From assembly GCF_006438825.1 (NCBI RefSeq), contig NZ_RCZP01000021.1, positions 1 through 64,000 on the forward strand: DNA of 64,000 nucleotides, read 5' to 3'. The DNA is from Muricoccus nepalensis (GTDB lineage: Bacteria; Pseudomonadota; Alphaproteobacteria; Acetobacterales; Acetobacteraceae). Below the pieces are notes generated by a model. That model made no database searches. It saw nothing but the letters and a program-made list of their open reading frames with translations, and was not told the origin of the DNA. Below, one piece after another: positions 6,867 through 20,446 of this stretch. The number at the start of each line of letters is the position of its first letter. Positions within the stretch are counted from its first letter, which is position 1. The translations under genes were made by a program, and so were the position numbers.

Positions 6867-7373
6867 TTAGTGGCGGGCGGCGGTCACCTCGATCTCCACG
6901 AGCCAGCCGGGGTTCACGAGCCCGGCCACCTGCATGACGGAGCGCGCGGGCAGGTTGGGCTGGGCGGCCGTGCCGAAGTGCTCGACGTAGGCGGCCATGA
7001 AGCCGTCGAAGTCCATGCGGCCGCCCTTGCCGGGGTCGCCGACGAGGAAGACCTGCATCCGCACGACGTCGCCGAGCGAGAGGCCGATCGACTTCAGGGA
7101 GGCCTCGATCCGCGACAGCACGCCGGCCGTCTGCGCGCGCGTGTCCCCGAAGCTCGCGAGGCTGTTGCGCGGCGCCGCCGGGTCCGCGACCGGCGGCACC
7201 ATCCCGCTGACCATCACCGTGGTGGCGCCCGGCGGCACCTCCACGGCCATGGCGATGGGGAAGTTCGAGCCGGGCGTGCGGTGGCGGGTGATCTCCTGGC
7301 CCGCCGCCGGCGAGAGGAGGGCGGGGGAGAGGACCGTGGCCAGCAGGCCGGCGGCGAGCAGGGGGACGCGCAT
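6867..7373 (-). CDS. exported RidA-family imine deaminase
   Basis: 168 residues from ATG 7373 with an AGAAGG site upstream. RidA/YjgF proteins are normally cytosolic ~130-residue trimers that hydrolyse reactive enamines and imines. This one carries a clear 26-residue signal peptide (PLLAAGLLATVLSPALLSPAAGQ), placing it in the periplasm. The family-defining arginine is present at about R144 in LPARSVMQVAGL, and the closing VEIEVTAA strand is conserved, so deaminase activity is plausible. It is the third gene after the flavin amine oxidase and the cytochrome c, 26 bases downstream of the latter. In that context it would hydrolyse the imine released by amine oxidation. The substrate is unknown. 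Confidence 0.88.
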   Translation of the reverse strand: MRVPLLAAGLLATVLSPALLSPAAGQEITRHRTPGSNFPIAMAVEVPPGATTVMVSGMVPPVADPAAPRNSLASFGDTRAQTAGVLSRIEASLKSIGLSLGDVVRMQVFLVGDPGKGGRMDFDGFMAAYVEHFGTAAQPNLPARSVMQVAGLVNPGWLVEIEVTAARH

Positions 7374-7399
7374 GCGGCGTGTGCCTTCTGTTGAACGGG

Positions 7400-7840
7400 T
7401 CAGGGGCGGGCCGCCCGCACCTCCTCGGGGGTCGCGGGATCCTCGGCATAGGCGTTGCCAAGGTTGGTGCGGACCCAGTTCACCACCGCCGCCACCTGCG
7501 CGTCGTCGAGCTGCGTGGCGAAGCCGGGCATGCCGTGCCGGCCGTGGAGGACGACGCCGACGGGATAGGCCGTGTGCTCCAGCTTCTCGTTCCCCGCCAG
7601 CGCCGGGTAGGCGCCGGCGCCCACGGCCCCGCGCCCGTTGGGCATGTGGCACCCCGCGCAGATCGCGGCGTAGAGGGCCCCGCCGTCGCGCTGGCCGAAG
7701 CGCGTGGCCGAGACGAAGCCGTGGCTGTCCGACGTCGCCTCCCCCACCCGCTGCTGCGCCGAGCGCGGCGGGGCGTCGGCCTGGGAAAGCGCGGGAAGCG
7801 GGGCGAGCGCGAGGCCCAGGAGGAGAAGGGCGGGGCGCAT
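7400..7840 (-). CDS. periplasmic c-type cytochrome
   Basis: 146 residues with an N-terminal signal peptide (PALLLLGLALAPLPALSQA). A single heme site CAGCH (C61, C64, H65) follows GALYAAI, and the distal ligand is probably M104 in HGMPGF; the end (VAAVVNWVRTNLGN) is the usual class I cytochrome c helix. Its ATG shares one base with the TGA of the amine oxidase gene (TGATG), so the two are translationally coupled. The obvious role is to accept electrons from that flavoenzyme and pass them to the respiratory chain. NicA2 and its cytochrome CycN in nicotine-degrading Pseudomonas are a known precedent. The pairing here is inferred from gene order. Confidence 0.92.
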   Translation of the reverse strand: MRPALLLLGLALAPLPALSQADAPPRSAQQRVGEATSDSHGFVSATRFGQRDGGALYAAICAGCHMPNGRGAVGAGAYPALAGNEKLEHTAYPVGVVLHGRHGMPGFATQLDDAQVAAVVNWVRTNLGNAYAEDPATPEEVRAARP

Positions 7841-9441
7841 CACGCGGACACCACGCGGCGGTGCAGGCGCGAGATCGCGTCGAGGGAGGAAAGGATGGCG
7901 CCTTCCTGCCAGGCGGGGATGTAGGAGGCGTGCTCGCCCGCGAGGACGATCCGCCCGTCGAGGGCGCAGAGGTTGTCGTAGTGCTCGTCCCGCTTGGCGT
8001 CCGTCCAGGCGCCGTTGCAGCCGAGCGCGCCGGGCACGCGGTGCCAGCCGACGGAGACGCCGCCGTCGAACTCGTCCTTGTATTGCGGGTGCAGCGCCGC
8101 GCCCCATTCCAGCGCCCGCTTCACGCGCTCCGCCGCCGGCAGGGCCGTGAACTCGTAGGCGTAGGGGCCGAAGGCGTAGGCGCCGAGCAGCACGCCCTTG
8201 CCCGGCGTGCCATAGGCCGTGGAGGGGTAGGAGATCATCCGGATCGGCAGGTCCGTGTAGGAGATGCCGCCGTAGATGTGCTCGTCCTGCTCCCAGAAGC
8301 GGCGCTTGAACTGCAGCCCGACCTTCACCGAGGCGGCGTAGGGCACCGCGCGGATCGCGGCGGCCATGGGCGCGCCGACGTTCATTTCGATCTGGCTGAG
8401 GATGGAGAGCGGGATGGTGCAGACGCACCAGTCCGCCCGCACCTGCTCCGCCCCGCCGGCGCCCTGCGCGTCCCGCAGCGTCACCGTCACGCCGCGGTCG
8501 TCCTGGCGGATCTCCGTCACCTTGGCGTTGTAGCGGATCAGCCCGTCCACCTCGCGCGCCATGGCCTTGGCGATCATGTCCATGCCGCCGACGGGCTGGA
8601 ACATCGTCGTCTGGAACTCGTAGAGCGAGCCGGTGACGAGGTAGGACCAGAGGCGCGAGGAGAGCACGTCCTTGATCGCCACCGGCTCCGACGGCACGGG
8701 GCGCGCGGTGAGCCCGCCGCCGGGGTCGCGGTCGAAGCCGCGGCGGTCGGAGGTGAGGACCGACTTCGCGTAGGTCATGTCCGTGTTCAGCGCGCCCCAG
8801 GCGCGGAGGGATTCGAGCAGGATCTCCTGGTCCTGCTTGCCCACGGCCTCGTCCAGCTTGCCCTGCTTCGTCGCCTTGGCGAGAAGCTCCGCGATGCCGC
8901 CCTGGTAGTCCGCGTTGATCGTGCGGTAGCGCTGCGGCTTGCCGCCGAAGGCGTTCCGGCCGTGCACCATCGCGTTGTGGTTCACCTGCACGAAGGGCTC
9001 GAGCGCGACGCCCAGGCGCTTGCAGTAGTCCAGCACGGCGTGGTGGTTGTAGGGGATGCGCCAGGGGCCGGGGTTGAAGTAGAGCCCGTGGTCGAAGCCG
9101 ACCGTCTGCGTCTCCCCGCCCAGCTCCGTGTAGCGGTCGCCGCCGCGCAGCGACCAGCAGCGGCCGCCGGGGCGGTCCGAGTATTCCAGCACCTGCACGC
9201 GGTAGCCGGCCTTGCGCAGCTCCATCGCCGCGACCATGCCGGCCACGCCCGCGCCGAGGACGAGCACGGAAGCGCCGCGCGCGTCTCCCTCGAGCTTCAC
9301 CGGCCCCGCATAGGCCGATTCCGCGGCGACGCCGAGCGCGGTCATCGCCTGGTACATCGCGGCGCCGCCCGCCACCGCGCCGATCCGCGCGAGCAGGGCC
9401 CGGCGGCTCGGGGACTGCTCGGGGCCGGGTTGTTCCGCCAT
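7840..9441 (-). CDS. Tat-exported flavin amine oxidase/dehydrogenase
   Basis: 533 residues from ATG 9441, preceded by a strong AGGAGGA; a further in-frame start at 9498 lacks such a site. The N-terminus has a twin-arginine motif (SRRALLARIGAVAGGAAM, R13-R14), indicating folded export with bound FAD. The dinucleotide fold VLVLGAGVAGMVAAMELRKAG (starting about residue 60) and DRPGGRCWSLRGGDRYTELGGE are the FAD-binding blocks of the monoamine-oxidase family. The C-terminal GRIVLAGEHASYIPAWQEGAILS closes the FAD site. It heads a three-gene operon with a c-type cytochrome and an exported RidA, so it probably works as a dehydrogenase using cytochrome rather than O2. The amine substrate cannot be inferred. 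Confidence 0.9.
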   Translation of the reverse strand: MAEQPGPEQSPSRRALLARIGAVAGGAAMYQAMTALGVAAESAYAGPVKLEGDARGASVLVLGAGVAGMVAAMELRKAGYRVQVLEYSDRPGGRCWSLRGGDRYTELGGETQTVGFDHGLYFNPGPWRIPYNHHAVLDYCKRLGVALEPFVQVNHNAMVHGRNAFGGKPQRYRTINADYQGGIAELLAKATKQGKLDEAVGKQDQEILLESLRAWGALNTDMTYAKSVLTSDRRGFDRDPGGGLTARPVPSEPVAIKDVLSSRLWSYLVTGSLYEFQTTMFQPVGGMDMIAKAMAREVDGLIRYNAKVTEIRQDDRGVTVTLRDAQGAGGAEQVRADWCVCTIPLSILSQIEMNVGAPMAAAIRAVPYAASVKVGLQFKRRFWEQDEHIYGGISYTDLPIRMISYPSTAYGTPGKGVLLGAYAFGPYAYEFTALPAAERVKRALEWGAALHPQYKDEFDGGVSVGWHRVPGALGCNGAWTDAKRDEHYDNLCALDGRIVLAGEHASYIPAWQEGAILSSLDAISRLHRRVVSA

Positions 9442-9605: not shown

Positions 9606-10562
9606 TTGACGATCCCCGTTCTCGATGCCCCCCCGATGGCGCCCGCCCGGTTCCGCGACCCCGCCCGGACGGCGAAGGGGGAGCGGCGCGCGGCGGTGTC
9701 CCTCGGCGCGCTGCGGACGCTGTGGTTCAACACCGGCACGCTCTGCAACCTGACCTGCGCGAATTGCTACATCGAGAGCTCGCCCCGCAACGACGCCCTC
9801 GTCTACCTCACCGCCGCCGAGGTGGCGGGCTACCTCGACGAGGCCGCGCGCGACCGGCTGCCGGTGGAGGAGATCGGCTTCACCGGCGGCGAGCCCTTCA
9901 TGAACCCCGACATGCTCGCCATGCTGGAGGACGTGCTGCGCCGAGGCCACCGCGCTCTGGTGCTGACGAACGCCATGCGCCCGATGATGCGCCACCGCGA
10001 GCGGCTGGCGGCGCTGAACGCGGCCCATCCGGGCCTTCTCACCGTCCGCGTCAGCCTCGACCACTACGGGCCCGCGCTCCACGACCTCGAGCGCGGCCGG
10101 GGCACCTTCGAGATCACGATGCAGGGCATGGCCTGGCTGGCGGAGCGCGGCTTCCGCCTCAACGTCGCGGGCCGCGCGGCCTTCGGGGCCGAGCCGGAGG
10201 CGGCGCTGCGGGCGGGCTACGCGCGGTTGTTCGCGGCCCGCGGCCTCCCGCTCGACGCCGCCGATCCGGTGGCGCTGATGCTCTTCCCGGAGATGGACCC
10301 CGGGGCCGACGTGCCGGAGATCACCGAGGCCTGCTGGGGCATCCTCGGCAAGTCGCCCGACAGCGTCATGTGCGCCTCCTCCCGCATGGTCGTGAAGCGC
10401 CGCGGCGCAGCGGCGCCAGCGGTGCTCGCCTGCACGCTTCTCGCCTACGACCCACAGTTCGAGCTCGGCGCGACGCTGGCCGAGGCGAGCCGGCCGGTGC
10501 CGCTGAACCATCCCCATTGCGCGCGCTTCTGCGTGCTGGGCGGCGCGGCGTGCAGCCGGTGA
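9606..10562 (+). CDS. radical SAM enzyme of a PhnDEC-like transport operon
   Basis: 318 residues from TTG 9606, which has GGAG 8 bases upstream; ATG 9636 is an alternative. The radical SAM cluster motif is C47-x3-C51-x2-C54 in CNLTCANCY, followed by FTGGEPFMNPD, so it should bind a [4Fe-4S] cluster and cleave S-adenosylmethionine. The C-terminal part has further cysteines (ACWGIL, VMCASS, VLACTLL, HCARFC, AACSR) resembling an auxiliary Fe-S (SPASM-like) region. It is the first of five genes with 4-base overlaps, followed by a PhnD/E/C-type importer and a metallophosphoesterase. This is not PhnJ, the C-P lyase radical SAM protein, whose cysteines are arranged differently. Substrate unknown; it may modify what the importer brings in. 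Confidence 0.85.
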   Translation: MTIPVLDAPPMAPARFRDPARTAKGERRAAVSLGALRTLWFNTGTLCNLTCANCYIESSPRNDALVYLTAAEVAGYLDEAARDRLPVEEIGFTGGEPFMNPDMLAMLEDVLRRGHRALVLTNAMRPMMRHRERLAALNAAHPGLLTVRVSLDHYGPALHDLERGRGTFEITMQGMAWLAERGFRLNVAGRAAFGAEPEAALRAGYARLFAARGLPLDAADPVALMLFPEMDPGADVPEITEACWGILGKSPDSVMCASSRMVVKRRGAAAPAVLACTLLAYDPQFELGATLAEASRPVPLNHPHCARFCVLGGAACSR

Positions 10563-11419
10563 GGGCCCCCCGCCGCGCGCTCCTGCTCGCCGCCCCGGCG
10601 CTGGCGCTGGCCACGGGCGCGGGCGCGCAGGGGCGGCCGCTGCGCTTCGCCGTCGGCCCCTTCCAGCCCACGGCCGGCGATACGCGCCGGGCCTACGAGC
10701 CCTTCTTCGCCCATCTCGCCGCCGCCGTCGGCCGCCCCTTCGAGCTGACGGTCACCACGGACTGGGCGGGCATCGCCGTCGCGCTGGCCAACGACCAGGT
10801 GGACGCCGCCTGGATGGGCCCCTGGGGCTACGTGCTGGCGAAGGACCGCGCGGGGGCGGAGGCGCTGGCGGTCGTGAAGTACCAGGGCCGCCCGACCTAC
10901 CACGCGATCATCATCGCGCGGCCGGAACTCGCCTTCCCGGACTTCCCGGCCGACGCGCGGGGGCGGTCCATCTCCTTCGCCGACGCCGGCTCCACCTCGG
11001 GCTGGCTGATCCCGAGCTACTGGTTCCGCACCCAGGGCATCGATCCCAAGACCTTCTTCCGCTACCGCGACGGCGCCTCGCACCCGGCCAACGTCACGGC
11101 GGTGGCGAACGGCCAGGTGGACCTCGCGACCGACTACGACCGCAACCTCGCGGCCATGATCGCGGCCGGGCGCGTGCGCGAGGACCAGGTGCGGGTCGTC
11201 TGGCGCTCCGATCCCCTGCCCAACGACGCCCTGGCCGTGCGCCGCGGCCTGGAGGCCCCGGTAAAGCGCGCCCTGCTGGACGCGGCCCTCGCGATCGGCG
11301 AGGCGACGGCCGCCCGCGTCATGCCGCCCAACTACACGGGCTGGGAGGCGGCGGGGCCAGAGAGCTACGCGATGATCGAGGCCGCCGGCCGGGCGCTCGG
11401 GCGGATCGGCGGGGGGTGA
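10559..11419 (+). CDS. PhnD-like periplasmic substrate-binding protein
   Basis: 286 residues from GTG 10559, which overlaps the TGA of the radical SAM gene as GTGA; GTG 10550 is also in frame. The signal peptide is RRALLLAAPALALATGAGAQ. The mature protein begins LRFAVGPFQPTAGDTRRAYEPFFAHLAAAVG and continues with DQVDAAWMGPWGYVLAK and SISFADAGSTSGWLIPSYWF, blocks shared with PhnD and related phosphonate/phosphite-binding proteins. In that family SxSTSG contacts the oxyanion; here it reads AGSTSG. The ligand may be a phosphonate, phosphite or another small oxyanion. The following two genes supply the permease and ATPase. Confidence 0.85.
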   Translation: MRAPRRALLLAAPALALATGAGAQGRPLRFAVGPFQPTAGDTRRAYEPFFAHLAAAVGRPFELTVTTDWAGIAVALANDQVDAAWMGPWGYVLAKDRAGAEALAVVKYQGRPTYHAIIIARPELAFPDFPADARGRSISFADAGSTSGWLIPSYWFRTQGIDPKTFFRYRDGASHPANVTAVANGQVDLATDYDRNLAAMIAAGRVREDQVRVVWRSDPLPNDALAVRRGLEAPVKRALLDAALAIGEATAARVMPPNYTGWEAAGPESYAMIEAAGRALGRIGGG

Positions 11420-12165
11420 GGCGGCGCTGGGCGGGCGGGCTGGCGCTCGCCGCCTTCCTCGCCTGGTGCACCTGGGTGGTCTCGCCGGACCTGGGGCGGC
11501 TGGTCGCGGGGCTGCCGCGGCTGGCGCGCTGGCTCGCGGGCGCCTTCCCGCCGGACTTCTCGGGGCCGGGGGACCTCGCCCGACGCGCCGCGGAGACGGT
11601 GGCCATCGCGAGCCTCGGCACCGCGCTCGCCGCCCTCGCCGCGCTGCCGCTGGCGGTGATGGGCGCGCGGCCGGTGGCGCCGGCGCCGGTGCTGTACCAC
11701 CCCGTGCGCGCGCTGCTGGACACGCTCCGCGGGGTGGACGGCTTCGTCTTCGCGCTCATCCTCGTCGCGGCGGTGGGCCTCGGCCCCTTCGCGGGGATGC
11801 TCGGCGTCGCGCTGCACTCCACCGGCTCCATCGCCAAGCTCTGGTCGGAGGCGCTGGAGGCGGCTGACCTCTCGCCCGTCGAGGCCGCCCTCTCGGCCGG
11901 GGCCTCCCGCGCCCAGGCCGCGGCCGTGGTGCTGCTGCCGGAGACCCTGCCGCAGACGGCCTCTGCCGTGCTCTATGTCTGGGAATTCAACATCCGCGCT
12001 TCCACCGTGCTCGGCGTGGTGGGGGCCGGGGGGCTGGGGCAGGAATTGAAGAACGCGGTGGACCTGCTCGACTTCGCGCGGGTGCTGGCCATCCTCATCA
12101 TCGTCGTCGCCATGGTCCTGGCGGCGGACCGCCTCTCCGGCGCGCTGCGCCGCGCGCTGCTTTGA
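11416..12165 (+). CDS. PhnE-like ABC transporter permease
   Basis: 249 residues from GTG 11416, overlapping the binding-protein stop as GTGA. There are about six hydrophobic helices. The cytoplasmic coupling loop is VEAALSAGASRAQAAAVVLLPE (EAA-type), and the ending STVLGVVGAGGLGQELKNAVDLLDFARVLAIL is characteristic of PhnE-type phosphonate importers. It pairs with the ATPase whose start overlaps its stop. A single permease gene suggests a homodimer. Confidence 0.88.
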   Translation: MRRRWAGGLALAAFLAWCTWVVSPDLGRLVAGLPRLARWLAGAFPPDFSGPGDLARRAAETVAIASLGTALAALAALPLAVMGARPVAPAPVLYHPVRALLDTLRGVDGFVFALILVAAVGLGPFAGMLGVALHSTGSIAKLWSEALEAADLSPVEAALSAGASRAQAAAVVLLPETLPQTASAVLYVWEFNIRASTVLGVVGAGGLGQELKNAVDLLDFARVLAILIIVVAMVLAADRLSGALRRALL

Positions 12166-12797
12166 CGGGCGGGCTGGTGGTGGAGGGGCTGTCGGTCTCG
12201 CTCGGCGGGCGCGCGGTGCTCTCGGGCGTCACCCTCGCCGTCGCGCCCGGGGAGGTGCTGGCGATCGAGGGGCCATCGGGCGCGGGCAAGACCACGCTGC
12301 TGCGCGCCGCGGCCGGGCTGGTGCCGCACGCGGGCACGGTGAGCGCGGGCGGCGCGCGGCCGGCGCTCGTGTTCCAGCACCACGCGCTGGCGCGGCGGCT
12401 GAGCGCGCGGAGCAACGTCCTCGTTGGCGCGCTCGGGCGCACCGGCTTCCTGCGCTCCGCCCTCGGCCTCTGGCCCGCGCGGGAGCTGGCGCTGGCGGCG
12501 GAGTGCCTCGGCCGCGTCGGGCTGGCGGGGCTGGCCGAGCGGCGGGCGGACACGCTCTCGGGCGGGCAGCGCCAGCGGGTGGCCATCGCCCGCGCCCTGA
12601 TGCAGCGGGCGCCGGTCCTCCTCGCGGACGAGCCCGTGGCGAGCCTCGACCCCGCCAACGCCGAGGCGGTGCTGGTGCTCCTGCGGGAGCTCGCGCGGGG
12701 CGGGCTCGCGGTGGTGGTCAGCCTGCACCAGCCGGAGCTCGCCCGGCGCCACGCCGACCGGCGCCTGCGGCTGGAGAACGGGAGGGTGGTGGCGTGA
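12162..12797 (+). CDS. PhnC-like ABC transporter ATPase
   Basis: 211 residues from TTG 12162, overlapping the permease stop as TTGA. Walker A is GPSGAGKTT, the Q loop lies in LVFQHHALARRLSARSNVLVG, the signature is LSGGQRQRVAIARAL and Walker B is VLLADEP followed by VASLDP. SARSNVLVGALGRTGFLRSALGLWP is a PhnC-type helical-domain segment. At 211 residues it is shorter than typical PhnC (about 260), lacking part of the C-terminal end. It energises the importer formed with the two preceding proteins. Confidence 0.9.
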   Translation: MTGGLVVEGLSVSLGGRAVLSGVTLAVAPGEVLAIEGPSGAGKTTLLRAAAGLVPHAGTVSAGGARPALVFQHHALARRLSARSNVLVGALGRTGFLRSALGLWPARELALAAECLGRVGLAGLAERRADTLSGGQRQRVAIARALMQRAPVLLADEPVASLDPANAEAVLVLLRELARGGLAVVVSLHQPELARRHADRRLRLENGRVVA

Positions 12798-13627
12798 CGG
12801 TGCCGCTCCTGCGCGCGGAAGGGCCGGTGCTCGTCTTCGGCGGCCCCTACTCAAACCGGCAGGCGACGGAGGCGCTGTTCGCCGAGGCGGCGCGGCTCGG
12901 CATCCCGCCCGCGCGCGTCGTCTGCACCGGGGACGTGGTGGCCTACGGCGCCGACCCCGGCCCGACGCTGGAGCGGGTGATGGGCAGCGGCTGCGCCGTC
13001 ATCGCCGGGAACTGCGAGGAGAACCTCTCGGCCGGGCGCGCCGATTGCGGCTGCGGCTTCGAGGAGGGCACGGCCTGCGACCGTCTCTCCCGCGCCTGGT
13101 ACCCCTACGCCGAGGCGCGCGTCACCGCCGCGCAGCGGGCCTGGATGGCGGCGCTGCAGGCGCGGATGGTGCTGGAGATCGGCGGGCGGCGCCTGGCGGT
13201 GATCCACGGCGGCGCCGGCGAGACGGCGCGCTTCCTCTTCCCCTCCGCGCCGGACGCCGCTCTCGCGGAGGAGATCCGGGCCACGGGCTGCGACGGCGTG
13301 GTCGCCGGCCACTGCGGCATCCCCTTCGCCCGCCGGGTAGGCGAGGGCCTCTGGGTCAACGCGGGCGCGATCGGCATGCCCGCGGACGACGGGACGCCCC
13401 GCGGGTGGTTCGCGCTGCTCCGGCCGCAGGGCGGGACGCTCCGCGTCGAGCTTCGCCCGCTCGACTACGACCACGCGGCCGCGGCCGCCGCCATGCGCGC
13501 GGCGGGGCTGCCCGAGGGCTACGCCGCGGCGCTCGGCAGCGGCCTCTGGCCCTCGGCGGACATCCTGCCGGCGGAGGAACGGCGGCGGCGCGGCCAGGCC
13601 CTCGCGCCGGTCGCGCTCGACGCGTAG
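12794..13627 (+). CDS. atypical metallophosphoesterase of the radical SAM operon
   Basis: 277 residues from GTG 12794, overlapping the ATPase stop as GTGA. The calcineurin-like fold is recognisable from VVCTGDVVAYGADPGPTLE (GD motif), VIAGNCEENL (GNxE), LAVIHGGAGE, VVAGHCGIPF (GHxxxPF) and WVNAGAIGMP. The first motif, normally D-x-H, reads VFGGPYSNRQA and lacks both metal ligands. A cysteine cluster CGCGFEEGTAC sits near residues 78-95. I recall relatives sharing the GGPYSN start, so this looks like a subfamily feature, not damage. It may be a phosphatase with a changed metal site. Whether it acts on the imported compound is unknown. Confidence 0.82.
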   Translation: MTVPLLRAEGPVLVFGGPYSNRQATEALFAEAARLGIPPARVVCTGDVVAYGADPGPTLERVMGSGCAVIAGNCEENLSAGRADCGCGFEEGTACDRLSRAWYPYAEARVTAAQRAWMAALQARMVLEIGGRRLAVIHGGAGETARFLFPSAPDAALAEEIRATGCDGVVAGHCGIPFARRVGEGLWVNAGAIGMPADDGTPRGWFALLRPQGGTLRVELRPLDYDHAAAAAAMRAAGLPEGYAAALGSGLWPSADILPAEERRRRGQALAPVALDA

Positions 13628-13654: not shown

Positions 13655-13672
13655 CTCCCGGCCAACCGGGAG
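13655..13672 (+). terminator. terminator after the radical SAM/ABC operon
   Basis: CTCCCGG (13655-13661) pairs perfectly with CCGGGAG (13666-13672) over a CCAA loop, 27 bases after the metallophosphoesterase stop and before the next gene. TT follows, but there is no long T-run. Confidence 0.55.
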
Positions 13673-17447: not shown

Positions 17448-19493
17448 ATGAGCGAGAGCAACCCCCTCCTGGCGCCCAACCCCCTTTTGACGCCATGGGA
17501 CACCCCCTTCGGCCTGCCCCCCTTCGACCGCATCCGCCCGGAGCACGTCGCGCCCGCCTTCGAGGCGGCGATGGCGGAGAACCTGGAGGAGATCGCGGCG
17601 ATCGGGAACGACCCCGCGGAGCCGAGCTTCGCCAACACGATCGAGGCGCTGGAGCGCAGCGGGCGGGCGCTGACGCGGGTGGGGCTCGTCTTCTCCAACC
17701 TCGTCGTCAGCCTCGGCGGCCCGGCGCTGGAGGCGCTGGACCGGGAGATGTCGCCCCGCCTGGCCGAGCACGGCATGCGCGTGGCGCTGGACCCGCAGGT
17801 CTTCGCCCGCGTGAAGTCGCTTTACGCGCGGCGCGAGGAGCTGGGGCTGGCCGAGGACCAGGCGCGGCTGCTGGAGCGCACGCATCTCGGCTTCATCCGC
17901 AGCGGCGCGGCGCTGGACGAGGCGGCGAAGGCGCGGATGACCGAGATCTCCGCCCGCCTTGCCGTGCTGCACACGCAATTCGGCCAGAACGTGCTCCACG
18001 ACGAGAACGACTGGCACCTGGCGCTCGACGGGGGCGACCTCGAGGGGCTGCCGGCCTTCCTGCGGGACGGCATGGCCGCCGCCGCGGCGGAGCGCGGCCT
18101 CCCGGGCTTCGCGGTGACGCTGTCGCGCTCCCTCATCGAGCCCTTCCTCACCTTCTCCGCCCGGCGCGACTTGCGCGAGACCGCCTACAAGGCCTGGATC
18201 GCCCGCGGCACCCATCCCGGCGAGCACGACAACCGGCCGCTGATCCCCGAGATCCTGGCGCTGCGGGCGGAGCGGGCGCGGCTGCTCGGCTACGAGACCT
18301 TCGCCGCCTTCCGCCTGGCCGACACCATGGCCGGCAGCGCGACCGCCGTGCAGGGCCTGCTGGCCGAGGTCTGGGCGCCCGCCAAGCGCAAGGCCGCCGC
18401 CGAGCGCGACCGCCTGCTCGCCCTCGCCCGCCGCGAGGGCTTCGAGGGCGACCTCGCCCCCTGGGACTGGCGCTACTACGCCGAGAAGGTCCGCCTGACG
18501 GACTACGCGCTGGACGAGGCGGAGCTGAAGCCCTTCTTCGTCTTCGGGAACATCCAGCTGGCCGCCTTCGACACCGCGACGCGGCTCTTCGGCGTGACCT
18601 TCACCCCGCGCGAGGACGTGCCGCTCTACCACCCGGACGTGCGCGCCTACGAGGTGCGGGACGCCGACGGCCATGTCGGCGTCTTCCTCGCCGACCCCTA
18701 CGCCCGGCCGGGCAAGCGCTCGGGCGCCTGGATGAGCAGCTACCGCGACCAGGAGGATCTCGACAGGCCGGTCTCGCCGGTGATCATCAACAACAACAAC
18801 TTCGCCAAGTCCGACCCGGTGCTGCTGAGCTTCGACGACGCGGAGACCCTGTTCCACGAGTTCGGCCACGCGCTGCACGGCATGCTGAGCCGGGTGCGCT
18901 ACCCCTCGCAGTCCGGCACCTCCGTGCGGCGCGACTTTGTGGAGCTGCCGTCCCAGATCTACGAGCACTGGATGGCCCTGCCGGAGACGCTGCAGCGCTA
19001 CGCGCTCCACCACCGCACGGGAGAGCCGGTGCCGGAGGCGCTGAGCGCGCGGCTGCTCTCGGCCCGCGGCTTCAACCAGGGCTTCGCGACGGTGGAGTAC
19101 ACCTCCTCCGCCCTCATCGACATGGCGCTGCACGGCCATCCCGACCCGGCGTCGATCGACATCGACCGCTTCGAGCGGGAGTTCCTGGCCGAGATCGGCA
19201 TGCCCGCGGAGATCGGCTTCCGCCACCGCCCCGCGCATTTCCAGCACCTCTTCGCGGGCGGCGGCTACGCGGCGGGCTACTACTCCTACCTCTGGGCGGA
19301 GGTGCTCGACGCCGATGGCTTCGAGGCCTTCACCGAGGCGGGCGACCCCTTCGACGCCGCGACGGCCGCGCGGCTGCGCACCCTGCTGAGCGCGGGCGAC
19401 ACGCGCGATCCCATGGAGCTGTTCGTCCACTTCCGCGGGCGACTGCCGAGCACGGCGGCCCTTCTCCGCGGGCGCGAGCTGGTGTCCGCGTGA
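17448..19493 (+). CDS. M3-family oligopeptidase
   Basis: 681 residues, the normal length for oligopeptidase A / dipeptidyl carboxypeptidase. The zinc site is H470-E471-F-G-H474 in TLFHEFGHALHGM, with the third ligand probably E499 in DFVELPSQ, 29 residues on as expected. Other family blocks are KRSGAWMSSY and FAGGGYAAGYYSYLWAEVLDADGF. The protein has no signal peptide and should degrade short peptides in the cytoplasm. The start is an ATG six bases after a likely -10 box with no ribosome-binding site, suggesting a leaderless mRNA. The MYG1-like gene starts within its stop codon. Confidence 0.95.
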   Translation: MSESNPLLAPNPLLTPWDTPFGLPPFDRIRPEHVAPAFEAAMAENLEEIAAIGNDPAEPSFANTIEALERSGRALTRVGLVFSNLVVSLGGPALEALDREMSPRLAEHGMRVALDPQVFARVKSLYARREELGLAEDQARLLERTHLGFIRSGAALDEAAKARMTEISARLAVLHTQFGQNVLHDENDWHLALDGGDLEGLPAFLRDGMAAAAAERGLPGFAVTLSRSLIEPFLTFSARRDLRETAYKAWIARGTHPGEHDNRPLIPEILALRAERARLLGYETFAAFRLADTMAGSATAVQGLLAEVWAPAKRKAAAERDRLLALARREGFEGDLAPWDWRYYAEKVRLTDYALDEAELKPFFVFGNIQLAAFDTATRLFGVTFTPREDVPLYHPDVRAYEVRDADGHVGVFLADPYARPGKRSGAWMSSYRDQEDLDRPVSPVIINNNNFAKSDPVLLSFDDAETLFHEFGHALHGMLSRVRYPSQSGTSVRRDFVELPSQIYEHWMALPETLQRYALHHRTGEPVPEALSARLLSARGFNQGFATVEYTSSALIDMALHGHPDPASIDIDRFEREFLAEIGMPAEIGFRHRPAHFQHLFAGGGYAAGYYSYLWAEVLDADGFEAFTEAGDPFDAATAARLRTLLSAGDTRDPMELFVHFRGRLPSTAALLRGRELVSA

Positions 19494-20446
19494 GCGCCGC
19501 CGCCCCCTTGCCCGTGCTGGCGACGCACAGCGGCAAGTTCCACTGCGACGAGGTCTTCGCCTACGCCGTGCTCCGCCTGGCGCTCGGCCTCCGCGCGCCC
19601 GGCGCGGACCACGTCCTGTTGCGGACGAGGAAGCCCGCGCCGATCGAGGCCGCGGATATCGTCTGGGACGTCGGCACCGTCTTCGACGCGGCGCGCAACC
19701 GCTTCGACCACCACCAGCGCGGCGCCCCCGCGCGGGAGGACGGCACGCCCTTCTCCTCCGCCGGGCTCGTCTGGCAGGTCTATGGCGAGCGCGCGGTGGC
19801 GCGCCTGCTGGAGGCCTCGGGCAGCGCGCGCTTCGCCCCCGCCATCGCGCAGGAGCTCGACCGCAAGCTCGTGCGGCGCATCGACGAGGTGGACAACGGC
19901 TTCTCCGTGACCGGCCCCGTGCAGGACGACGCGCTGGGCCTCGCGGCGCTTGTCGGCGACTTCAACCCGGCCTGGGACGACGCGGACGCGAACGGCCCGA
20001 CGGCGGGCGACGCCGCCTTCCTGGAGGCGACGGCCTTCGCGGAGGGCGTGCTGCGCCGCCGCGTGGACGGGCTGCGCGGCCGCCACGCGGCGGAGGCCTC
20101 GGTGCTCGCGGCGCACGGGGCGGGCGAGGACCCGCGCATCCTCGTGCTCGACCGCGGCATGCCCTGGAAGGGCGCGGTCTTCGCGCACGACCTGCCCGTC
20201 CTCTTCGCGGTCAGCCCGGCCTCGAACGGGAACTGGATGCTCGACACCATGCCGCCCGAGCCCGGCTCCTTCGCCCAGCGCCAGCCGCTGCCGGAGGAAT
20301 GGGCGGGGCTGCAGGAGGGCGAGCTCGCGGCGCGCTCCGGGGTGGCGGACGCGGTCTTCGTCCATGTGCGGCGCTTCGTCGGCGCGGCCCGCTCGCGCGA
20401 TGGCGCGGTGGAGATGGCGCGGCGGTCGCTGCCCGCGGAGGGGTGA
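19490..20446 (+). CDS. MYG1-like DHH-superfamily phosphoesterase
   Basis: 318 residues from GTG 19490, overlapping the peptidase stop as GTGA. Conserved blocks are VLATHSGKFHCDEVFAYAVL, VWDVGTVFDAARNRFDHHQRG (metal-binding DHH-type), FSSAGLVWQVYG, IDEVDNGF and a C-terminal SNGNWMLDTMP. These identify the MYG1/UPF0160 family. Eukaryotic MYG1 is a 3'-5' RNA exonuclease of nucleus and mitochondria; bacterial members have no settled role. Metal ligands appear intact. Translational coupling to an oligopeptidase suggests a joint housekeeping or salvage role, but that is inference. Confidence 0.9.
   Translation: MSAAAPLPVLATHSGKFHCDEVFAYAVLRLALGLRAPGADHVLLRTRKPAPIEAADIVWDVGTVFDAARNRFDHHQRGAPAREDGTPFSSAGLVWQVYGERAVARLLEASGSARFAPAIAQELDRKLVRRIDEVDNGFSVTGPVQDDALGLAALVGDFNPAWDDADANGPTAGDAAFLEATAFAEGVLRRRVDGLRGRHAAEASVLAAHGAGEDPRILVLDRGMPWKGAVFAHDLPVLFAVSPASNGNWMLDTMPPEPGSFAQRQPLPEEWAGLQEGELAARSGVADAVFVHVRRFVGAARSRDGAVEMARRSLPAEG

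Follow-up and report, generated by a model that had tools for sequence, protein, structure and literature searches.

A recurrent radical SAM–metallophosphoesterase gene module with exchangeable importers in Muricoccus nepalensis and its possible role in organoarsenical uptake and conversion

We analysed positions 1 to 64,000 of contig NZ_RCZP01000021.1 (forward strand; hereafter the window) from the alphaproteobacterium Muricoccus nepalensis (Acetobacteraceae; assembly GCF_006438825.1), focusing on a cluster of five genes at positions 9606–13627. These encode a radical S-adenosylmethionine (SAM) protein (rSAM1), the periplasmic binding protein (SBP), permease and ATPase of an ATP-binding cassette (ABC) importer, and a degenerate metallophosphoesterase (MPE). 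The cluster is one form of a recurrent module, and the gene set is new as far as our literature search shows. Judged from sequence, it is probably linked to arsenic, and it may form the half of an organoarsenical (arsenosugar-type) pathway that handles uptake and conversion, a more specific proposal that we regard as evenly poised. The cluster comprises the following features:

9606–10562, plus strand: rSAM1, radical SAM gene (318 amino acids (aa), P0001; TTG start)
10559–11419, plus strand: SBP gene, HtxB-like 'hybrid' type (286 aa, P0002; GTG start)
11416–12165, plus strand: ABC permease gene, PhnE type (249 aa, P0003; GTG start)
12162–12797, plus strand: ABC ATPase gene, PhnC-like (211 aa, P0004; TTG start)
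12794–13627, plus strand: degenerate MPE gene (277 aa, P0005; GTG start)
13655–13672, plus strand: hairpin with a perfect 7-base-pair stem and a 4-base loop, 3' of the MPE gene

The five frames lie as the initial annotation of this DNA had placed them, and the four junctions, read from the sequence, are 4-base overlaps (GTGA, GTGA, TTGA and GTGA in order). These overlaps suggest that the five proteins are produced together, an expectation strengthened by the recurrence of the gene order elsewhere and by fusions of the first and last genes. The families assigned earlier are likewise borne out: rSAM1 belongs to the radical SAM superfamily (PF04055, 69.9 bits; threshold 29.5), SBP to PF12974 (196.7 bits; threshold 27) and the permease to TIGR01097 (PhnE, 241.7 bits; cut-off 216.7), while the ATPase is PhnC-like (TIGR02315, 192.4 bits, below the cut-off of 266.1; PF00005, 92.7 bits) and MPE matches PF12850 (39.0 bits). 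The hairpin reported after the MPE gene does have a perfect stem, but it does not exceed chance expectation in such G+C-rich DNA, because dinucleotide-preserving shuffles of the region fold as well (z = −1.41; 19 of 200 shuffles equally good); its role as a terminator is putative and unproven.

To place the cluster among its relatives, we used a family draw of 150 genomes, a phylum draw of 299 genomes and the best 80 of at least 529 stretches encoding relatives (hereafter named loci), in 77 of which the MPE gene was called by our own gene finder, itself checked against an annotated locus. Named loci overlap draw loci in contigs (for example, L162 and L034), and counts from the two sets are not summed. 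MPE was found in 29 of the 150 family genomes (strong matches plus two fragments; 46 in the tally at E 1e-3), and 28 of these also carry rSAM1, the exception being a fragment on a short contig. A close SBP (>500 bits) occurs in 10 of the 150 (13 at E 1e-30) and adjoins MPE in all 10. Across the phylum draw, rSAM1 was found in 22 genomes (E 1e-50 or better; tally 25) and MPE as five strong matches (tally six at E 1e-20) plus two diverged forms from another class (L112 and L114). The diverged MPE (25% identical over 228 residues) is accompanied by a diverged radical SAM gene, an SSS transporter gene and a TVP38-FAD fusion.

Among the 77 best named loci with a called MPE gene, MPE and the radical SAM protein share a single open frame of about 600 aa in 24; the radical SAM gene lies within seven genes in a further 21 and was not seen in 32, some of which are on short contigs. 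The fusions run MPE then radical SAM and occur in Bradyrhizobium BTAi1, Acidiphilium, Azospirillum and others. The initial annotation had named rare co-occurrence as the outcome that would speak against a joint system; these fusions, together with the near-constant pairing of MPE with rSAM1 and of SBP with MPE, indicate instead that the genes belong together.

The importer is the variable part of the module. Within four genes of MPE, the same 77 loci have an SBP or PhnE gene (36), an MFS transporter (18), an SSS transporter (6) or no called importer (17), and in two of these last a MIP channel gene lies directly upstream of MPE (L182 and L193). Because the first and last genes of the cluster are those found fused, we regard the MPE–radical SAM pair as the core and the importer as exchangeable. 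The exact gene order of the window recurs in seven of the 80 best named loci (L156, L157, L158, L162, L163, L164 and L167), and a Roseomonas haemaphysalidis plasmid keeps it with a 10-base gap instead of the first overlap. Close spacing is usual with each type of transporter gene: where the gene upstream of MPE is on the same strand, it lies within 20 bases in 19 of 22 cases for the ATPase, 14 of 16 for MFS, 9 of 10 for the permease, 3 of 3 for SSS and 2 of 2 for MIP. The upstream neighbour is divergent in 13 of the 77 loci.

Two further features of these loci were recorded. PhnE directly precedes MPE, with the ATPase gene missing, in 10 loci (9 within 20 bases; among them L154, L159, L168, L169, L188, L197, L201 and L207), and such importers may borrow an ATPase. 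Within seven genes of MPE in the 77 loci we also noted NrsF-type anti-sigma factors (17), extracytoplasmic function (ECF) sigma factors (16) and DUF692 genes (5), which suggests metal-stress control; loci with NrsF or ECF neighbours include L034, L035, L037, L155–L158 and L160–L164.

The reading of the initial annotation, that the cluster handles phosphonate or phosphite, is not supported as first choice: the importer can be exchanged for MFS, SSS and MIP proteins, and the wider gene set is that of ArsS-type arsenic cassettes. Its view of the set as a new one fares better: the open-licence literature that we searched gave no description of a radical SAM–MPE–phosphonate-type importer set, nor of a radical SAM protein with TIGR04282, nor of a glycosyltransferase and a radical SAM protein combined with arsS and arsM in arsenosugar formation.

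Genes that recur around the pair encode TVP38 and a MerA-like flavoprotein, the two often fused, together with TIGR04283, TIGR04282, DUF547 and sterol desaturase proteins; members scored singly fell below curated cut-offs. These accessory genes are shared with the ArsS (TIGR04167) cassette, as exemplified by an annotated Acinetobacter portensis plasmid (L140) with the order arsS, TVP38/FAD, DUF547, TIGR04283, TIGR04282, methyltransferase, phosphate transporter, mtnP and sterol desaturase. A second likeness appears in four of the 299 phylum genomes, where an ArsM-like gene of the cassette's subfamily stands at most one gene from the radical SAM gene, directly adjoining in G250 and G156 and separated by one flavoprotein gene in G275 and G279; the methyltransferase of the A. 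portensis cassette is 60% identical to an ArsM-like protein near an rSAM1 relative. In the family draw, ArsM is divergent and 150 bases from the radical SAM gene in G132 and 3.6 kilobases (kb) away in G086. The differences are that the cluster radical SAM protein is not ArsS (58.4 bits to TIGR04167, short of the cut-off of 300), that the cluster adds MPE and an importer, and that ArsM is usually lacking. As a separate observation, the L140 plasmid, which bears this complete ArsS-type cassette, is mobilizable and carries NDM-1 in its name.

Co-occurrence across genomes agrees with this gene context. TIGR04283 (≥120 bits; 77 of the 150 family genomes, tally 86) is present in 63 of 64 rSAM1-positive versus 14 of 86 rSAM1-negative family genomes, and exceeds its curated cut-off in 61 of the 150. 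ArsS was absent from all 150 family genomes at E 1e-25. In the phylum draw, rSAM1 occurs in 22 genomes, cassette-type ArsM in 29 and both in 8 (Fisher P = 4e-4, ignoring shared descent). Within the 29 ArsM genomes, ArsS was found in none of the 8 with rSAM1 versus 17 of the 21 without it (Fisher P = 1e-4, also ignoring shared descent), and the four with neither are 81–93% complete; nor was ArsS found in any of the 14 rSAM1 phylum genomes without ArsM. In these samples ArsS and rSAM1 thus exclude one another. In the M. nepalensis genome itself, genes for TIGR04282, TIGR04283, TVP38 and the flavoproteins FAD1 and FAD2 stand together on contig C1 and not on the cluster contig, while in R. haemaphysalidis their counterparts lie on either side of the five genes, no more than about 6 kb away.

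Three relatives of the cluster are neighbours of ars genes. In L193 the order is arsR, arsI, arsC, MIP channel and MPE, with the last two genes overlapping by 4 bases, and L182 repeats the last three. In L193, ArsI exceeds its cut-off and ArsR equals its own (55.0). ArsC (68.8 bits) stays below its NCBIfam threshold, as does the channel, which was scored in L182 and passes the Pfam one. In L185, arsR, arsI, an arsC-like gene, ArsJ-associated GAPDH, arsJ and acr3 are followed by two small genes and by ABC, PhnE and SBP genes divergent from MPE. The ArsR, ArsI, GAPDH, ArsJ and ACR3 proteins of L185 exceed their cut-offs, and its arsC-like product is 61% identical to ArsC of L193, with no NCBIfam match at E 1e-15. 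In Sinorhizobium meliloti the ars operon is known to include an aquaglyceroporin, AqpS, according to the available part of PMC6205960. L228 also has genes for an ArsR-type regulator and for a permease with weak similarity to SaoE (98.7 bits; cut-off 325) at 18651–20370, about 8 kb from an SSS–MPE pair.

Several results weigh against an arsenic role. Close ars genes were found near only three of the 80 best named loci (L182, L185 and L193, two of them close relatives), and so the arrangements tell by their layout and not by their number. The count comes from a BLAST search using the L193 proteins as queries, a method that detects near relatives only; L228 gave a weak arsC match, and the remaining 85 annotated loci gave none. 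In the 20 kb surrounding the window cluster (L062) there was likewise no match to the L193 ars proteins, although these neighbours were not searched by family. Cassette-type ArsM is absent from the M. nepalensis genome and from all 80 best named loci and is found in 4 of the 150 family genomes (>390 bits; tally 18 at E 1e-30), a scarcity that would fit import but would also fit a module unrelated to arsenic. Neither ArsM nor MPE was found in 7 of the 22 rSAM1-positive phylum genomes. ArsM occurs in none of the 7 of these genomes with MPE versus 8 of the 15 without (P = 0.02), a contrast that we give little weight because diverged MPE was sought in only some genomes. The ArsM-like proteins score below curated ArsM cut-offs (173.7 of 263 and 100.5 of 400 for one member), as do the TIGR04282 (119.1 of 134) and TIGR04283 (158.8 of 182) proteins of M. 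nepalensis below theirs, and the 'arsenosugar' label of these last two families is the annotators' name. Further contrary evidence comes from the binding protein.

SBP exceeds the cut-off of TIGR01098, the phosphate/phosphite/phosphonate subfamily (161.3 bits; cut-off 112.05), and falls below that of TIGR03431 (PhnD, 171.6 of 261.1). Its profile is nearest to the hypophosphite binder HtxB (5me4, 285 bits over 258 positions), far ahead of the best PtxB-type (100 bits), PhnD-type (107 bits), Aio-named (61 bits) and ArrX (38 bits) chains. The pocket residues W69, W85, P88, Y114, S145, T146, S147, H175, Y193, R195 and D223 are invariant in 37 of 37 SBPs, except at position 193 (Y in 18, F in 19). 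Mapped onto HtxB, 8 of 11 pocket residues are kept, namely W52, W68, P71, Y97, T129, S130, R178 and D206 in all 37; the cap tryptophan, the D206/R178 pair and the two-oxygen-site residues of HtxB are conserved. The other three are changed (N128S, F158H and M176Y/F), which sets SBP apart from HtxB itself. The available text of PMC6629693 lists the same three changes for HtxB-like proteins of Bradyrhizobium BTAi1, Methylopila and Lutibaculum, a sub-group named 'hybrid' in the part of PMC5700983 at hand. The 37 SBPs all share these changes while keeping W52, R178 and D206, including those of BTAi1 (L199) and Lutibaculum (L191). As these two organisms carry the cluster type, its SBP belongs to the published hybrid sub-group.

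Because SBP is closest to HtxB, phosphite is a serious rival as ligand. On this account the cluster would be a reduced-phosphorus module that imports phosphite, hypophosphite or methylphosphonate, which the radical SAM protein and MPE would convert either to supply phosphorus or to make a product resembling a phosphonate. The same passages of PMC6629693 model the hybrid pocket at 88 versus 68 cubic angstroms and predict phosphite as the ligand. In the experiments reported in the accessible portion of PMC5700983, HtxB showed no binding of methylphosphonate at concentrations up to 10 mM; this null argues against a methylated ligand, provided that the larger pocket makes no difference. The initial annotation had noted that the C-P lyase genes are absent, which is true of the five genes (phnGHIJKLM) and not of the genome, where PhnJ is encoded on contig C81. 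As PhnJ was found in 10 of the 10 searched genomes that carry a close SBP, phosphonates may be used through genes elsewhere in these genomes. Against a reduced-phosphorus module stand the replacement of the importer by MFS, SSS or MIP proteins and the accessory and ars genes, which fit arsenic. Further, no phosphite dehydrogenase or C-P lyase was noticed among recurrent neighbours, which were read from translations and not family-searched. The five genes also differ from the HtxB and PtxB importer systems in having no ptxD, htxA or C-P lyase gene among them. On balance we consider this explanation unlikely.

Methylated arsenicals are chemically similar to these phosphorus compounds: dimethylarsinate shares with hypophosphite two oxygens and a pair of small non-polar groups, and methylarsonate is the counterpart of methylphosphonate. 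In SAR11, phnD expression rose 2-fold on dimethylarsinate, according to the available part of PMC6426599. An arsenical would be a candidate ligand of SBP, still unproven, and that the importer serves a methylated one is a part of the proposal that we rate as somewhat less likely than not. We also observed SBP paralogues about 70% identical and without an adjoining permease gene, in G112 (contig C6, L144) and G024 (contig C34, L145) next to genes resembling those for polysaccharide synthesis; the paralogues of G112, G024, G141 and G095, beside polysaccharide or other genes, gave no clue to a ligand.

A further alternative keeps arsenic and drops the methyl groups: SBP would bind arsenite or arsenate as its distant relatives AioX and ArrX do, and the enzymes would detoxify it with no need of a methylated substrate. 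The profile matches to Aio-named and ArrX chains point this way, as do arsC and the MIP channel before MPE in L182 and L193 and acr3 near L185. SBP is nevertheless far nearer to HtxB than to either, and purposeful import of inorganic arsenic would be odd. ArsS-type chemistry, moreover, acts on methylated arsenic. This makes an inorganic module improbable. A selenium or sulfur module in place of arsenic is more doubtful still. The FAD2 protein of M. nepalensis matches TIGR03169, a family N-terminal to SelD, at 233.2 bits (below the cut-off of 310), TVP38 genes are present, and a rhodanese-like gene, read from translation, occurs in five Roseomonas-type loci; SBP, however, reaches only 82.9 bits to the 'putative selenate' family TIGR04553 (cut-off 250), far behind HtxB, and the links to ArsM, ArsS and ars genes point to arsenic.

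The two enzymes of the core pair each depart from their known relatives. Two-metal calcineurin-like phosphoesterases bind their metals through DxH, GD, GNH(D/E), a middle His and GHxH. In alignments, MPE retains GD, Asn, the middle His and the first His of GHxH; DxH and the other GHxH His are lost, so that the two-metal set is incomplete. The description of the phosphoesterase as atypical was therefore apt: DxH has become GxY (GGPYSN), GHxH has become GHCG and GNH has become GNC. The last change alone does not imply lost activity, because SapH carries GNW at that position. A paralogue from the same bacterial family (L032) is canonical (SDIHGN, GNHDE and GHTH).

The predicted model of MPE (pLDDT 94.9) shares the fold of SapH/PH1004-type MPEs (3qfm, 2gju and 3rqz; Z about 26–27 over 212–244 residues, root-mean-square deviation (rmsd) 1.8–2.8). 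PH1004 (2gju, Z 26.8, rmsd 2.7, 235 aligned) and SapH (3qfm, Z 26.7, rmsd 2.8, 244 aligned) are tied in the VIA matches. Unlike these proteins, MPE has DxH and the second GHxH His replaced, carries a cysteine insert (CGCG...C) and, in many members, shares one protein with a radical SAM domain. Across 39 sequences no variation was seen at cysteines C44, C85, C87 and C95, and the CxC is retained in the diverged forms as well; L094, translated out of frame in the alignment with those forms, was disregarded.

In rSAM1, the CxxxCxxC motif (C47/C51/C54) is invariant in alignments of 19 and of 31 sequences, and five C-terminal cysteines (C256, C276, C305, C309 and C316) are invariant or nearly so in both. 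The enzyme is distinct from PhnJ, as had been noted. The predicted model (pLDDT 86.4) has BlsE (7vob, Z 19.5, rmsd 3.1, 246 aligned), SuiB (5v1s, Z 19.2, rmsd 3.5, 240 aligned) and SkfB (6efn, Z 19.1, rmsd 3.1, 237 aligned) as tied fold neighbours among VIA matches, with MoaA also present and most of the length covered. The C-terminal cysteines and these fold matches may point to an auxiliary Fe-S domain of SPASM/twitch type, for which no domain model matched at E 0.01. That rSAM1 is a peptide maturase of that type with the importer a chance neighbour is hardly credible: SuiB, SkfB and anSME (Z 16.7) are among its fold neighbours, set against BlsE, but the MPE fusions and recurring gene order speak against chance, and the overlapping junctions leave no room for a precursor gene within the cluster (small peptide genes were not sought in the flanks).

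The best named family for rSAM1 is Rv1681 (NF049973), which with Rv1680 (NF049985) of Mycobacterium tuberculosis forms a pair that, by name, likewise joins a radical SAM protein to an SBP-like partner. The scores (92.9 bits for rSAM1 and 23.1 for SBP) lie far under the cut-offs of 380 and 400, and the literature listed for the pair gave no function. Many rSAM1 copies without MPE in the family genomes adjoin seemingly unrelated genes (RecQ, CydDC-like, OmpA and bacterioferritin, named from translations); copies in L123, L126, L132 and L138 adjoin cassette genes, and the other MPE-less copies are linked to them by co-occurrence only. Separately, a second radical SAM gene, nearest to TrsS (100.4 bits; cut-off 490), was seen in L033 (7429–8808), L149, L179 (one contig with L038) and L226. 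It recurs with DUF547 and often with chalcone-isomerase-like and DoxX genes, and in L149 it is also near an ArsM-like gene.

In the organoarsenical pathway that we propose, the HtxB-like ABC system would import a small arsenic oxyanion, likeliest a methylated one (dimethylarsinate or methylarsonate), in genomes without cassette-type ArsM. MPE, presumably no longer a normal two-metal phosphoesterase, would use its conserved CxC cysteines to hold or deliver the arsenic species, and the radical SAM enzyme would form the C-As bond, as ArsS does elsewhere. The reductase, TVP38, TIGR04282 and TIGR04283 proteins, encoded on contig C1 in M. nepalensis, would then finish the products. ArsS is reported to adenosylate arsenic in the available part of PMC12159101, and whether rSAM1 occupies the ArsS role is, in our judgement, an even call.

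Arsenic is normally kept out of cells or pumped out of them. A broader idea, which we consider doubtful, is that the module serves arsenic scavenging: bacteria lacking ArsM would gather the methylated arsenic of others through HtxB-like hybrid ABC, MFS or SSS importers, and the MPE–radical SAM pair, often fused, would join carbon to arsenic in making a compound similar to an arsenosugar. If true, some bacteria collect arsenic to make organic arsenic compounds, by a second, ArsS-independent route with a radical SAM enzyme of its own. It would also re-assign to arsenic the 'phosphite' hybrid binding proteins, which the accessible text of PMC6629693 proposes for phosphite bioengineering.

Elsewhere in the window, upstream of the cluster on the minus strand (6867–9441), flavin amine oxidase-, cytochrome c- and RidA-like genes, named from translation, are closely spaced, and the first two overlap by 4 bases.

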